64,000 nt of DNA from Streptomyces viridochromogenes DSM 40736. GTDB taxonomy: Bacteria > Actinomycetota > Actinomycetes > Streptomycetales > Streptomycetaceae. The translations under genes and the position numbers were made by a program. Below are positions 5,980-64,000 of this stretch, piece by piece. The first letter of the stretch is position 1, and each line of letters starts with the position of its first letter. The notes under the pieces are model-generated. The model made no database searches. It had not been told where the DNA came from and saw nothing but the letters and a program-made list of their open reading frames with translations. The stretch spans positions 3,337,866-3,401,865 of the forward strand of contig NZ_GG657757.1 of the NCBI RefSeq assembly GCF_000158955.1. Direction: 5' to 3'.

Positions 5980-6124
5980 GGAGCGGTCCCTCTCGTTCGG
6001 CGGGCCGGTCGGGCCCGTGCGGGTGGCCGGGCGCACAGGGTTGAGCCCGTGCGCCCGTACCCCTTCAGACGCGAGCGTGCTCGGCGCGGTTGCCCGTGCC
6101 GAGCACCTGTTTTTGGTGCGCTCT

Positions 6125-6862
<738 letters not shown>

Positions 6863-12305: not shown

Positions 12306-12325
12306 GCTGGCCAGGATAAGCAGAA

Positions 12326-12362
12326 GGGCCGTTCCGTACCGATGGCTGGTACGGAACGGCCC
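12326..12362 (-). terminator. 15-bp perfect hairpin upstream of mec
   Basis: Positions 12326-12340 and 12348-12362 are exact reverse complements around GATGGCT. On the minus strand it follows the permease gene and precedes mec by 20 bases, so it is probably the permease terminator, but it could also be an operator or 5' stem-loop for mec. Confidence 0.6.
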
Positions 12363-12456
12363 ACATGCCGGACGCCCTGAGCGGCAGCCGCAGGGGGTGC
12401 CACGAGTACTCCCTACGGCTGGGCGTCCTGGGAGAGGCTGCTCGGCGGCGCCGCCA

Positions 12457-12500
12457 GGGGCGCGGGGAACCGCGCGACCTGCCACGACGATGCCGCGTGC
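12457..12500. repeat. Dispersed Streptomyces intergenic repeat, copy B
   Basis: Begins GGGGCGCGGGGAACCGCGCG and continues ACCTGCCACGACG, the core of a repeat common in Streptomyces intergenic DNA and related to copies at 5463, 35454 and 59760. It lies between the permease stop and the mec hairpin. Confidence 0.65.
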
Positions 12501-58308: not shown

Positions 58309-59649
58309 ATGACCGTCAACGACGATGTCCTGCTTGTCCACGGCGGAACCCCGCTCGAGGGCGAGATCCGTGTCCGCGGTGCGAAGAACCTCGTACCGAA
58401 GGCCATGGTCGCAGCGCTGCTGGGCAGCGCTCCGAGTCGGCTGCGCAATGTTCCGGACATCCGTGACGTACGGGTCGTACGGGGTCTGCTGCAGCTCCAC
58501 GGTGTGACGGTCCGTCCGGGTGACGAGCCCGGCGAACTGGTGATGGACCCGACGCGCGTGGAGAGCGCGAACGTCGCTGACATCGATGCCCACGCGGGCT
58601 CCAGCCGTATCCCGATCCTGTTCTGCGGCCCGCTGCTGCACCGTCTGGGGCACGCCTTCATCCCGGGTCTCGGCGGCTGCGACATCGGCGGCCGGCCCAT
58701 CGACTTCCACTTCGACGTGCTGCGGCAGTTCGGCGCGCGCATCGAGAAGCGGGAGGACGGACAGTACCTGGAGGCTCCGCAGCGGCTGCGGGGCACGAAG
58801 ATCCGGCTGCCGTACCCGTCCGTGGGCGCGACCGAGCAGGTACTGCTGACGGCGGTCCTCGCCGAGGGCGTCACCGAGCTGTCCAACGCGGCTGTCGAGC
58901 CGGAGATCGAGGACCTCATCTGCGTGCTGCAGAAGATGGGCGCGATCATCGCGATGGACACCGACCGGACCATCCGCATCACCGGTGTGGACAAACTCGG
59001 CGGCTACACCCACCACGCCCTCTCGGACCGCCTGGAGGCCGCGTCCTGGGCGTCGGCGGCGCTGGCGACCGAGGGCAACATCTACGTCCGGGGCGCCCAG
59101 CAGCGCTCGATGATGACGTTCCTCAACACCTACCGGAAGGTGGGCGGGGCCTTCGAGATCGACGACGAGGGCATCCGCTTCTGGCACCCCGGCGGCCAGC
59201 TGAAGTCCATCGCGCTGGAGACGGACGTCCACCCCGGCTTCCAGACCGACTGGCAGCAGCCCCTGGTGGTGGCCCTCACGCAGGCCACGGGCCTGTCCAT
59301 CATCCACGAGACGGTCTACGAGTCCCGTCTCGGCTTCACCTCGGCCCTGAACCAGATGGGCGCCCACATCCAGCTCTACCGCGAGTGCCTGGGCGGCTCC
59401 GACTGCCGCTTCGGCCAGCGCAACTTCCTCCACTCGGCCGTCGTCTCCGGCCCGACCAAGCTCCAGGGCGCCGACCTGGTCATCCCCGACCTCCGAGGCG
59501 GCTTCTCGTACCTCATCGCGGCCCTTGCGGCCCAGGGCACGTCCCGCGTCCACGGCATCGGCCTCATCAACCGCGGCTACGAGAACTTCATGGAGAAGCT
59601 CATGGAGCTGGGCGCGAAGGTCGAGCTGCCCGGCAAGGCGCTGGGATAG
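58309..59649 (+). CDS. murA: UDP-N-acetylglucosamine 1-carboxyvinyltransferase
   Basis: A 446-residue enolpyruvyl transferase that starts peptidoglycan synthesis by moving enolpyruvate from PEP to UDP-GlcNAc. The fosfomycin-target cysteine is C124 in GLGGCDIGGRP. Conserved VRGAKNLVPKAMVAA and HALSDRLEAAS are present, and the length fits MurA. Weak Shine-Dalgarno before the ATG at 58309. A 24-bp hairpin follows. Confidence 0.95.
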   Translation: MTVNDDVLLVHGGTPLEGEIRVRGAKNLVPKAMVAALLGSAPSRLRNVPDIRDVRVVRGLLQLHGVTVRPGDEPGELVMDPTRVESANVADIDAHAGSSRIPILFCGPLLHRLGHAFIPGLGGCDIGGRPIDFHFDVLRQFGARIEKREDGQYLEAPQRLRGTKIRLPYPSVGATEQVLLTAVLAEGVTELSNAAVEPEIEDLICVLQKMGAIIAMDTDRTIRITGVDKLGGYTHHALSDRLEAASWASAALATEGNIYVRGAQQRSMMTFLNTYRKVGGAFEIDDEGIRFWHPGGQLKSIALETDVHPGFQTDWQQPLVVALTQATGLSIIHETVYESRLGFTSALNQMGAHIQLYRECLGGSDCRFGQRNFLHSAVVSGPTKLQGADLVIPDLRGGFSYLIAALAAQGTSRVHGIGLINRGYENFMEKLMELGAKVELPGKALG

Positions 59650-59666
59650 TTTCGCGCGAACGCCGA

Positions 59667-59714
59667 AACGCCGAGGGGCGGCCACCTGGATCCAGGTGGC
59701 CGCCCCTCGGCGTT
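59667..59714. terminator. 24-bp perfect palindromic terminator after murA
   Basis: 48 bases (59667-59690 and 59691-59714) are fully self-complementary, making a 24-bp stem 17 bases after the murA stop. Confidence 0.85.
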
Positions 59715-59759
59715 CATGCGGCTCTCGGTGAACAACGCGCCGTGGGGCGCACCCCCTGA

Positions 59760-59805
59760 GGGGCGCGGGGAACTGCGCGACCAGCCACTGGCGGCCCGCA
59801 GATAC
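59760..59805. repeat. Dispersed Streptomyces intergenic repeat, copy D
   Basis: Begins GGGGCGCGGGGAACTGCGCG, continuing ACCAGCC, matching the common Streptomyces repeat and relating to copies at 5463, 12457 and 35454. It lies between the murA terminator and hupA. Confidence 0.75.
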
Positions 59806-60451: not shown

Positions 60452-61885
60452 TCAGACGCCGGAGGGGCTGATCGCCGCCGCACCCACGGCCTTGGCGGCT
60501 TCCCGCACCGCCCCGGCGACGGCGCCCGCGACCTTGTCGTTGAAGACGCTCGGGATGATGTAGTTCGGGTTCAGCTCGTCCTCGGTCACCACGTCCGCGA
60601 GGGCCGTGGCCGCGGCCAGCATCATCTCGGTGTTGACCGTGCGCGACTGGGCGTCCAGCAGACCGCGGAAGACACCCGGGAAGACCAGCACGTTGTTGAT
60701 CTGGTTCGGGAAGTCGGAGCGGCCGGTGGCCACAACCGCTGCGGTCTGACGGGCGATTGCCGGGTCGACCTCGGGGTCGGGGTTCGCGAGAGCGAACACG
60801 ATCGCCCCGTCGGCCATGGCGGCCACGTCGTCGCCGTCGAGGACGTTCGGGGCCGAGACGCCGATGAAGACGTCGGCGCCGCGCACGGCCTCCTTGAGCG
60901 TGCCCGTCAGGCCCTCGGGGTTGGTGTTGTCGGCGATCCAGCGCAGCGCCGAGTCCGGGGCGGCGTCCACGAGGTCCTCGCGGTCGGCGTGCACGACGCC
61001 GTGGATGTCCGCCACGACGGCGTTCTTCACACCGGCGGCGAGCAGCAGTTTGAGGATGGCCGTACCGGCGGCGCCGGCGCCGGACATGACGACGCGGATG
61101 TTCTCGATCGCCTTGCCCGTGACGCGCAGCGCGTTGGTGAGCGAGGCGAGGACGACGATCGCGGTGCCGTGCTGGTCGTCGTGGAAGACGGGGATGTCGA
61201 GGGCCTCGCGCAGCCGGGCCTCGATCTCGAAGCAGCGCGGCGCGGAGATGTCCTCGAGGTTGATGCCGGCGAAGCCGGGGGCGATCGCCTTGACGATCTC
61301 GACGATCGCGTCGGTGTCCTGGGTGTCCAGGCAGATCGGCCAGGCGTCGATGCCGGCGAACCGCTTGAAGAGGGCCGCCTTGCCCTCCATCACGGGCAGC
61401 GCGGCCTTCGGGCCGATGTTGCCGAGGCCCAGCACGGCGGAACCGTCCGTCACGACCGCAACGGAGTTGCGCTTGATGGTGAGGCGGCGGGCGTCCTCGG
61501 GGTTCTCGGCGATCGCCATGCAGACGCGGGCCACGCCCGGCGTGTAGACCATGGACAGGTCGTCACGGTTGCGGATGGGGTGCTTCGACGCCATCTCGAT
61601 CTTGCCGCCGAGGTGCATGAGGAAGGTCCGGTCCGAGACCTTGCCCAGGGTGACGCCCTCGATGCCGCGGAGTTCCTCGACGATCTCGTCCGCGTGCGCG
61701 GTCGACGAGGCCGCGATGGTGACGTCGATACGGAGCTTCTCGTGACCGGACGCGGTGACGTCGAGGCCGGTCACCGAGCCTCCGGAGGACTCCACGGCGG
61801 TGGTGAGCTGCGAGACGGCGGTTCCGCTCGCGGGCACCTCCAGCCGGACCGTCATCGAGTAGGAGACGCTGGGCGCCGTTGCCAT
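60452..61885 (-). CDS. NAD-dependent malic enzyme with N-terminal ACT domain
   Basis: A 477-residue enzyme that oxidatively decarboxylates malate to pyruvate. An ACT-like regulatory domain (about residues 8-85; SYSMTVRLEVPASGTAVSQL) precedes the catalytic part, with the NAD-binding fold (VVMSGAGAAGTAILKLL) and the metal/substrate motifs VFHDDQHGTAIV and 'AALPVMEGKAALFKRFAGID'. ACT suggests amino-acid control. Faces hupA downstream. Confidence 0.93.
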   Translation of the reverse strand: MATAPSVSYSMTVRLEVPASGTAVSQLTTAVESSGGSVTGLDVTASGHEKLRIDVTIAASSTAHADEIVEELRGIEGVTLGKVSDRTFLMHLGGKIEMASKHPIRNRDDLSMVYTPGVARVCMAIAENPEDARRLTIKRNSVAVVTDGSAVLGLGNIGPKAALPVMEGKAALFKRFAGIDAWPICLDTQDTDAIVEIVKAIAPGFAGINLEDISAPRCFEIEARLREALDIPVFHDDQHGTAIVVLASLTNALRVTGKAIENIRVVMSGAGAAGTAILKLLLAAGVKNAVVADIHGVVHADREDLVDAAPDSALRWIADNTNPEGLTGTLKEAVRGADVFIGVSAPNVLDGDDVAAMADGAIVFALANPDPEVDPAIARQTAAVVATGRSDFPNQINNVLVFPGVFRGLLDAQSRTVNTEMMLAAATALADVVTEDELNPNYIIPSVFNDKVAGAVAGAVREAAKAVGAAAISPSGV

Positions 61886-62001: not shown

Positions 62002-62141
62002 GCAAAAAGAGACCCACGTCACGCGGACGTGGGTCTCTTTCGAAGTTCAGGTGGCACCGACCCGCCATGCTCGCCTCGCGGCAAGTGGTCGCTCGTAGCG
62101 ACGATGGTTGGGCCCGGGGGCTTGGATCGGGCCGGTGCCAC
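62002..62141 (-). ncRNA. Structured small RNA with intrinsic terminator (unidentified family)
   Basis: On the minus strand the transcript from about 62141 starts GUGGCACCGGCCCG and pairs with CGGGUCGGUGCCAC about 80 bases later (14-bp stem with one G-U). Inside are a GUCGC-UACGA-GCGAC hairpin and a GCC-GCGA-GGC hairpin. It ends in a 15-bp GC-rich terminator (62006-62020 with 62026-62040) followed by UUUUU. A TAGCCT -10 box (62146-62151) lies 4 bases before the 5' end. No coding frame fits. I do not recognise it as 6S, SRP, tmRNA or 6C RNA; possibly a known Streptomyces sRNA I cannot name. It lies between malic enzyme and the helicase. Confidence 0.7.
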
Positions 62142-62240
62142 ATCCAGGCTAACAAACAGATCCCGTAAGGCCATTCCCGTACCGGGAGTTCATTTCACCG
62201 ACAAGTGGGTATCGAGCCCCGGTTCCTGAGCCGGTCACTC

Positions 62241-64000
62241 TCAGTCCCTGAGAAGGTCGGGCACACCCGCCGCGTCCGGCTCGTCCCGCTGTGCCGAGAC
62301 GACCGTGAGCTGCTGGGTGGCCCGGGTCAGCGCGACGTAGAGCACACGCAGGCCGGCCGGGGACTCGTCGGCGATCTCCGCCGGGGAGACCACGACCGTC
62401 GCGTCGTACTCCAGGCCCTTCGCCTCCAGGCTGCCGAGTGCCACGACCCGGTCGCCGAGCCCGGCGAGCCAGCGGCGGGCCTCCTCGCGGCGCTGCATGG
62501 CGACGACCACGCCGACGGTGCCGTCGACACGCTCCAGCAGCCGGGCCGCCTCGTTGCGGACGGTCTCGCCGAGGGTGTCCTCGACGACCGTGAAACGGGG
62601 CTCGACGCCCGTGGAGCGGACCGCTCTCGGGGATTCGGAGCCGGGCATCGCGAGGGCCAGCACCTTCGAGGCCAGCTCGGCGATCTCGGCCGGGTTGCGG
62701 TAGTTCACGGTGAGCTCGAAGCGGCGGCGCGGGCGGGTGCCGAGGGCCTCGTCGCGGGCCTCGGCGGCCTCGTCCGGGTCGGACCAGGAGGACTGGGCCG
62801 GGTCGCCGACGACCGTCCAGGTGGCGTGCCGGCCACGGCGGCCGACCATGCGCCACTGCATGGGTGTGAGGTCCTGGGCCTCGTCGACGATGACGTGGGC
62901 GTACTCGGTGCGCTCCGCCGCCAGCCGCTCGGCGCGCTCGCGCTGCGACTCCTCGCGCACCGGCATCAGCTCCTCCAGGCCGGTGAGCTGGTCGAGCGGG
63001 TCGAGGTCGCGCTTCTTCCGGGGGCGGGCCGGGGCGCCGAGGATGGCCTGGAGCTCGTCGAGCATCGCGATGTCGTGCACGGAGCTGCCGTCGCGCCTGA
63101 GGGAGCGGGCGACCCTGCGGACCTCGCCGGGGTTCATGATCCGCCGGGCCCAGCGGCCGAGGCGGCGCTCGTCGGCCATGGCGGCCAGGACGGCCGCCGG
63201 GGTCAGCTCCGGCCACCAGGCGTCGAGGAAGGCGATGAAGGAGTCCTCGGAGGTGATGTCCTCGTCGAAGGAGGAGCGCAGCTCGGCGGCGAGTTCCGGG
63301 TCGCTGTGCCGGCCCGCCGCGCCGGACCGCTCCCACAGGGCGTCCAGGAGCAGTTTGCGGGCGCGGGGGCGCAGCAGGTTGACGGGGGCGGTGCCGCCGA
63401 GGACGGCGCGGCGGATGCCCGCCAGCTCCTCGGCCTCCAGCTCCAGCCGGCGGCCGAAGGCGACCACGCGCAGCCGGGTCGGTGAGTCGTTCAGCTCCAG
63501 GGCCCCGCGCGCGGCCTTGCGCAGCACCTTGATCATGCGGGACGAGCCCTTGGCGCGGGCTACGGACGGGGAGTCGTAGAGCGTGGCCTCGGCTCCCTCG
63601 ACCAGGGAGCCGATGGCGCGGATGGCGACCTGGCCCTCCTCGCCGAGGGAGGGCAGCACACCCTCGGTGTAGGCGACGAGCAGCGGGGTCGGCGAGACGA
63701 TCAGGATGCCGCCCGCGTACCGGCGCCGGTCCTGGTAGAGGAGGTAGGCGGCGCGGTGCAGGGCGACGGCGGTCTTGCCGGTGCCGGGGCCGCCCTCGAC
63801 GTAGGTCACGGAGGCGGCGGGGGCGCGGATGACCAGGTCCTGCTCGGCCTGGATGGAGGCGACGATGTCGCGCATGGTGTGGCTGCGGGCCTGGCCGAGC
63901 GCGGCCATCAGGGCGCCGTCGCCGATGACGGGCAGTTCCTGACCGCCCAGGAGGGCCTTCAGCTCGGGGCGCATGAGGTCGTCCTCGACGCCGAGCACCT
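62241..64000 (-). CDS. helD: HelD-type RNA polymerase-recycling helicase (partial)
   Basis: The C-terminal part of a large SF1 helicase (586 or so residues visible; the start is off the right edge). Walker A is GGPGTGKTAVALHRAAYLLY, the hallmark of HelD proteins; Walker B/DEXX is VIVDEAQDLTPMQW and motif VI is VLYVALTRATQQLTVV. HelD binds and recycles RNA polymerase in Gram-positive bacteria. A structured small RNA gene follows it. Confidence 0.88.
   Translation of the reverse strand, partial: VLGVEDDLMRPELKALLGGQELPVIGDGALMAALGQARSHTMRDIVASIQAEQDLVIRAPAASVTYVEGGPGTGKTAVALHRAAYLLYQDRRRYAGGILIVSPTPLLVAYTEGVLPSLGEEGQVAIRAIGSLVEGAEATLYDSPSVARAKGSSRMIKVLRKAARGALELNDSPTRLRVVAFGRRLELEAEELAGIRRAVLGGTAPVNLLRPRARKLLLDALWERSGAAGRHSDPELAAELRSSFDEDITSEDSFIAFLDAWWPELTPAAVLAAMADERRLGRWARRIMNPGEVRRVARSLRRDGSSVHDIAMLDELQAILGAPARPRKKRDLDPLDQLTGLEELMPVREESQRERAERLAAERTEYAHVIVDEAQDLTPMQWRMVGRRGRHATWTVVGDPAQSSWSDPDEAAEARDEALGTRPRRRFELTVNYRNPAEIAELASKVLALAMPGSESPRAVRSTGVEPRFTVVEDTLGETVRNEAARLLERVDGTVGVVVAMQRREEARRWLAGLGDRVVALGSLEAKGLEYDATVVVSPAEIADESPAGLRVLYVALTRATQQLTVVSAQRDEPDAAGVPDLLRD

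Follow-up and report, generated by a model that had tools for sequence, protein, structure and literature searches.

What is encoded in the short interval between a malic-enzyme gene and a helicase gene of Streptomyces viridochromogenes, and does it serve its neighbours or stand on its own? Along the 64,000-nucleotide stretch of DNA analysed here, which we call the window, the gene order is murA-hup-malic enzyme-RNA-helicase (murA identified by eye). We find strong support for an independent structured small RNA gene in this interval, read from the minus strand behind its own promoter motif, and it represents at this locus a structured RNA family found over a large part of the class Actinomycetes. 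Its features and those of its neighbours are the following:

60452..61885, minus strand: malic enzyme gene, a neighbour outside the system (open reading frame and family match)
62003..62145, minus strand: small RNA of about 140 nt (ends deduced, the 5' one from the promoter and the 3' one from the terminator)
62003..62041, minus strand: intrinsic terminator, 16-bp hairpin plus U5 (MFE fold)
62051..62064, minus strand: closing stem P1, 3' strand (P1 pairs covary)
62065..62070, minus strand: inner stem P1b, 3' strand GCATGG (covariation in alignment A3)
62072..62083, minus strand: core of hairpin P3, with a GNGA loop (covariation and fold)
62088..62102, minus strand: hairpin P2, GNCGC-UNCGA-GCGNC (pair covariation)
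62113..62119, minus strand: near-invariant CCCC(C)GG strand 5' of P2, candidate seed (unpaired in the covariation model)
62120..62125, minus strand: inner stem P1b, 5' strand CCAAGC (covarying columns of alignment A3)
62128..62141, minus strand: closing stem P1, 5' strand (P1 pairs covary)
62151..62153, minus strand: -10 element GTT, after a 19-nt spacer, overlapping TAGCCT at 62146-62151
62173..62177, minus strand: -35 element GGAAT of the sigma-R/sigma-H type (motif recurs across the class)
62241..63998, minus strand: HelD/HelR-like helicase gene, a neighbour outside the system, cut by the window end

Single-sequence folding of 62003-62142 on the minus strand gives -79.5 kcal/mol at z -7.79, and none of 200 shuffled sequences is equally stable, which bears out the original prediction of a minus-strand fold of about 140 nt; the RNA body minus its terminator (62040-62147) has z -3.34. 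The MFE fold contains the same closing stem of 14 bp with one G-U around two clear hairpins that had been described beforehand, and the terminator ends in the expected five U, its stem measuring 16 bp where 15 had been given. The MFE fold also has a third, 3-bp GCC/GGC hairpin that uses part of the CCCC(C)GG strand, and its outermost P3 pair, at 62070, competes with the 5' strand of P1b (62120..62125). We prefer P1b to the GCC/GGC hairpin because it is the version with covariation, and we infer a one-base shift of its register in Streptomyces. The architecture thus runs from P1 through an internal loop to P1b and a three-way junction, in which the CCCC(C)GG strand joins P1b to P2; in alignment A3 the P2 loop is UNCGA (5 bases) and the P3 loop GNGA (4 bases). 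A local CGGGCC/GGCCCG pairing that visual inspection showed in Streptomyces could replace the closing stem and so make a switch; the long-range stem covaries, and a switch is not claimed.

The fold had also been described as the only strong structure in the window not explained by a gene, and this does not hold. When 915 segments of 140 nt were scanned coarsely, each against 8 shuffles, the segment 59641-59780 between murA and hup outscored the RNA on both strands, and so did one that covers a tRNA gene. The murA and hup genes converge, and between them 59645-59790 on the minus strand forms a very long, near-perfect hairpin (z -6.75) that is probably a bidirectional terminator, and two long GC-rich hairpins, at 6021-6160 (z -6.24) and 12321-12460 (z -5.14), follow close behind the RNA.

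Compensatory base changes in relatives, which the original prediction had named as a test, are abundant. Alignment A1, made of 95 diverse sequences chosen to differ and aligned by sequence, is the basis of covariance model R1; over pairs named after RNAalifold and inspection of A1, it holds 258 double-changed cells, against 96 in shuffled and 35-109 in slid controls, and 0 of 500 shuffles reach 258. The covariation screen pointed to the inner stem P1b, which was then added (model R2). In alignment A3 (70 rows, P1b included, with L316, L319 and a weak second match in L307 excluded), 90.6% of cells are paired, and double changes number 298, spread over 19 of 25 pairs, where shuffled controls give 94.8 and slid ones 40-87, with no shuffle in 500 reaching 298; because A3 was fitted to the model, these counts lean toward structure. 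At the P1b columns 32-33/88-89 of A3, the combinations are AU 25, GC 21 and UA 7 for one pair and GC 27, CG 11 and AU 8 for the other, and the second pair of P2 reads CG in 41, UA in 28 and GC in 1 of the 70 rows. The CCCC(C)GG strand consists of invariant and nearly invariant columns in A1 and appears in the consensus too; part of the invariance of P2 and P3 in A1 and in A3 comes from the way the loci were chosen, L171-L289 having been picked by a P2/P3 motif, a pattern of which P1 and P1b were not part.

The minus strand is the RNA strand. In the model-fitted alignment A2, 108 G-U cells stand against 29 A-C cells, an excess that favours the minus strand as the RNA, and both the direction of the promoter and the side of the terminator agree. 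A protein-coding match on either strand had been named as a refuting observation; the four open reading frames that overlap the RNA have no Pfam or NCBIfam match, and all six frames are interrupted, each in 63 to 193 of 274 loci (part of these from the matches listed), so that a small encoded protein was rejected. One reverse frame is open in 211 of the 274 loci, which GC-rich DNA of 100 nt can give.

Nor does the RNA belong to a catalogued family that we could recognise: Rfam 15 at the gathering score returned no family for the RNA in the window or in 14 class loci, and a scan of 7 loci at E <= 0.1 gave no match to it. The Threonine operon leader (RF00506, Thr_leader) was rejected at 32 bits against a gathering score of 55, its terminator hairpin fitting and its body containing many non-pairs. 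ANTAR-target RNAs have two hairpins with six-base loops, and this reading was set aside since the loops of P2 and P3 have 5 and 4 bases. Positions 1558-1625 of locus L118, which comes from another family of the class, match the Rfam entry ASdes, a TB sRNA family.

How far the family extends was followed by DNA search and by covariance model. The DNA search matches the RNA in 198 of 199 genomes of the genus Streptomyces and in 393 of 394 sampled Streptomycetaceae genomes, representing 16 of 17 genera; the genome of S. viridochromogenes itself carries one copy, its second match (E 1.3e-6) being the terminator palindrome on the opposite strand. The same DNA query finds the RNA in 80 of 296 genomes of the class Actinomycetes, 28 of these in the own genus, and model R1 finds it in 183 of the 296 (65 of 114 genera, E <= 1e-4), a tally that takes in the genomes that gave training sequences for R1. 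Across the phylum, at E <= 0.01, R1 matches 29 of 346 genomes: 27 belong to the own class, and the other two, at E 0.003 and 0.008, are weak and were taken as chance. A pattern scan of named genomes added at least 119 further loci, in genera that include, among the matches listed, Nocardia, Mycolicibacterium, Rhodococcus, Gordonia, Nocardioides, Kribbella, Cellulomonas, Microbacterium, Geodermatophilus and Georgenia. When 26 match-free genomes (20 of the 113 in the class tally, four from the phylum, one from the genus and one from the family) were searched more sensitively, 5 gave matches at E <= 0.1 (best 1.7e-5) and the other 21 again gave none, so that even within the class the RNA is not universal. 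Four divergent members from two families, L316 and L319 (genome G641) and L343 and L348 (G587), are longer, at 137-173 nt, score low, and may constitute a branch of their own within the family. A 16-nt identity at another site of the S. viridochromogenes genome (L036) was viewed by eye as a possible target.

With the family in hand, the genomic surroundings can be read for what they say about the relation of the RNA to its neighbours. In the window, the RNA and both flanking genes are on the minus strand, the fold is aptamer-like and the terminator lies about 118 nt upstream of the malic-enzyme start, all of which would suit a leader that acts in cis on the malic-enzyme gene, as attenuator or riboswitch, or, from the other side, a 3' UTR product of helD. 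Among the 116 Streptomycetaceae loci, however, the RNA runs with its neighbours in 80 and against them in 36, and these inverted loci argue that it is neither malic-enzyme leader nor helD tail. Promoter and RNA can be seen inverted together among the RNA-oriented Streptomycetaceae sequences, for example in L165, and a malic-gene tree (115 loci, one of the 116 being omitted; quick method) needs 6 changes of orientation, of which well-supported branches force no fewer than 3. Since the RNA also has its own promoter motif directly upstream, is flanked by other genes outside the family and is followed by no conserved same-strand gene, of the kind that a leader or riboswitch would have downstream, we consider a cis-acting role extremely improbable, save for the case that the lineage of the window took the RNA up secondarily in such a role.

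The helicase neighbour had suggested another idea, that the RNA binds RNA polymerase or HelD in the manner of 6S or Ms1. The neighbour is indeed of the HelD/HelR kind, as had been claimed: its best solved relative is HelD (6yxu, E 9e-66), and against NCBIfam HelR it scores below the cut-off, with the gene truncated where the window ends. The adjacency, however, is seen only within Streptomycetaceae, where it is missing from six loci with flanks of about 2.5 kb (L155-L157, L159, L161, L162), and it is absent from 40 of 40 class loci outside the family, where the surrounding stretches contain no match to the helicase, the malic enzyme or hup. Rfam scans of the window returned neither a 6S nor an Ms1 family, whether at the gathering score or at E up to 10. 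The fold, too, is a three-way junction of about 105 nt and unlike 6S RNA, which is a rod with a central bubble. The excerpts seen of an RNA polymerase RIP-seq paper on S. coelicolor name scr3559 (Ms1) and scr0792 and not this RNA, and its main text does not contain 2951 or 2952 (PMC11077062). Altogether, an RNA of the 6S/Ms1 type that binds RNA polymerase or HelD is very unlikely, and that part of the original prediction finds no support here.

Outside Streptomycetaceae, the products of the genes beside the RNA include a nitroreductase, a carboxyltransferase, an HTH regulator, an AIR-synthase-like protein and an EVE-domain protein. In L173, L183, L186 and L206 (Isoptericola, Microbacterium, Nocardioides and Kribbella), the RNA adjoins proteins that look alike by eye, those of L173 and L186 having no Pfam match; in Microbacterium, the gene beside the RNA runs opposite to it, as if the RNA had flipped. 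A gene with its own promoter and terminator that keeps no fixed context has the marks of a trans-acting sRNA, the terminator being clear in Streptomycetaceae (a terminator-like site at 62 of 116 loci against 2 in shuffled sequence) and weak elsewhere (9 of 38 loci and, among the matches listed, 9 of 115, against 3 and 1 in shuffled sequence). We therefore hold it highly probable that the RNA acts in trans.

The promoter gives the most direct indication of when such an RNA would be made. The original prediction placed a TAGCCT -10 box, which is present at 62151-62146; as a lone -10 element it gives way to GGAAT-N19-GTT, the better reading because GGAAT-N-GTT recurs across the class. Directly upstream of the RNA, GGAA[CT]-N17-19-GTT stands in 165 of 274 loci (part of these from the matches listed); control windows have it in 1 of 1082 cases, and the reverse strand of the stretches read has it in 2 of 274. 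These counts are not independent because related sequences share ancestry. For the promoter and frame counts, 15 of 289 loci were excluded, namely the chance hits L031-L037 and L150 and the duplicates L038, L044, L048, L061, L063, L067 and L098. By set, the motif is found at 89 of 116 Streptomycetaceae, 25 of 39 class and, among the matches listed, 51 of 119 named loci, the last including 30 of 36 in Mycobacteriales, 7 of 36 in Propionibacteriales and 10 of 35 in Micrococcales.

The excerpts seen of published work give the sigma-R consensus as GGAAT-N18-19-GTT (PMC9205884) or GGAAT-N18-GTT (PMC2375139) and the sigma-H motif as GGAAT/C (PMC10012870); the family motif is that of sigma-R and fits that of sigma-H. 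The RNA thus shares with the sigma-R/sigma-H regulon a GGAAT-N18-19-GTT promoter just upstream, the spacer in the window being 19. In Corynebacterium glutamicum, SigH-type promoters have been predicted at 44 sRNA start sites, according to the part of that study available (PMC4046766), so that an sRNA under such a sigma factor is not new per se; the likeness of those sRNAs to the present family is one of promoter type. Open-licence titles and the beginnings of abstracts, searched for an sRNA under sigma-R/sigma-H or for a class-wide RNA family, contained no description of this RNA. A promoter of this type implies that the RNA should rise under thiol-oxidative or heat stress, and from the motif we consider induction by thiol-oxidative stress likely in the lineages that carry it.

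The motif is missing in 109 of 274 loci, so stress control is not universal. It would then be conceivable that the RNA is a constitutive housekeeping RNA for which the sigma-R-like motif is one lineage-dependent input, a reading that overlaps with the others as regards mode of action. About 40% of loci are without the motif, and in the seven multi-copy genomes examined it accompanies 7 of 15 copies: both in G745 (in tandem), two of three in G626, one of two in each of G737, G678 and G572, and neither in G812 and G578, the cases of G737 and G678 and of G812 and G578 being in keeping with a constitutive RNA. Against it, Streptomycetaceae, Mycobacteriales and other lineages with otherwise unalike flanks have retained the motif, and we rate a constitutive role as rather unlikely. 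The paralogues of the Nocardioides-like genomes, L353/L354 (G737) and L355/L356 (G678), consist of one with the motif and one without, and their junction sequences differ; they may possibly represent stress-driven and constitutive subtypes. The two tandem copies of G745 (L349) are separated by about 70 nt, and a GGAAT/C-N18-GTT promoter of its own precedes each of them.

A transcript of S. coelicolor very probably represents the same RNA. The window's RNA lies between the orthologues of SCO2951 and SCO2952, the latter of which we take to be the helicase, and this placement between malic-enzyme and helicase genes is its likeness to scr2952. SCO2951 is given as the malic enzyme in the excerpted text of PMC7494193. 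The habit seen in the names, in which scrN precedes SCO(N), comes from scr0792, placed between SCO0791 and SCO0792 in the text seen of PMC11077062, and from scr3559 (Ms1), placed beside SCO3558; together with the malic-enzyme assignment it implies that the window's RNA should be scr2952. As excerpted, PMC8388888 lists scr2952 (Vockenhuber et al. 2011) as a confirmed S. coelicolor transcript, conserved in over half of the Streptomyces tested, and says that it is in Rfam, whereas the window's RNA has no Rfam 15 match; this conflict leaves the identity short of proof. It is this excerpt that bears on the transcript which the original prediction had named as a further test. The strings "2951" and "2952" are absent from the main texts of PMC3765725, PMC11077062, PMC9130861, PMC4681348 and PMC4895711, two of which are S. 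coelicolor transcriptome papers.

Other known RNAs are more distant. The Ms1/6S-like RNA, scr3559, is an actinobacterial non-coding RNA with a closing stem as well, and it differs in locus (beside SCO3558), in fold and in having no Rfam match in the window. As actinobacterial sRNAs, scr5239, which is reported to bind a target mRNA, and 6C RNA, with C-rich stem-loops in the passage seen of PMC8388888, bear a general likeness to the family; 6C RNA has no Rfam match in the window.

Taking these observations together, we propose a working model in four steps: (i) the locus is a non-coding RNA gene that stands alone, equipped with a promoter and a terminator of its own; (ii) in many lineages, that of the window included, the sigma-R/sigma-H-type promoter would raise the RNA on thiol-oxidative or heat stress; (iii) closing stem, inner stem and the three-way junction with P2 and P3 leave the CCCC(C)GG sequence and a C/A-rich strand unpaired; and (iv) this unpaired strand would base-pair with the G-rich Shine-Dalgarno regions of mRNAs and repress their translation under stress. 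The reading as a whole, a stand-alone trans-acting sRNA, linked to stress in many lineages, whose C-rich strand pairs with G-rich translation starts, has in our estimate a probability of roughly 45%. Its most tentative element, modelled from the unpaired strand, is the pairing of that strand with G-rich translation starts, which is close to an even call and falls a little short of it.

The same conserved residues could mean something else, namely that the junction and the conserved loops are the site of a bound protein, the RNA being an RNP core or a protein-sequestering RNA that pairs with no mRNA. Near-invariant residues occupy the junction strand, P2 and P3 (in the two hairpins partly built in by the search pattern), and this favours protein binding because pairing with changing mRNA targets would not require such invariance; the fold, moreover, is kept class-wide. 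On the other side, the neighbours vary between lineages and point to no protein partner, and no Rfam family is matched. We regard a protein-binding RNA as unlikely, though less so than a constitutive one, and keep the stress-linked, mRNA-pairing sRNA as the preferred reading.

To our knowledge, few non-coding RNAs are common to Actinomycetes, and we know of little work on post-transcriptional control in this class of antibiotic producers. This RNA, which 183 of 296 sampled class genomes carry, combines covarying stems with a sigma-R/sigma-H-type promoter that recurs, while our searches found neither an Rfam family nor a role for it; it is readily testable in laboratory strains that are easy to handle. 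More broadly, with odds that we put at about one in three, the family may be a class-wide RNA arm of the thiol-oxidative stress response, a conserved sigma-R/sigma-H-driven sRNA that would reprogram translation or an RNA-binding protein and that would include stress-driven and constitutive paralogues in some genera. If this is true, it would be by analogy an actinobacterial counterpart of OxyS, one for which we found neither an Rfam family nor a described function.
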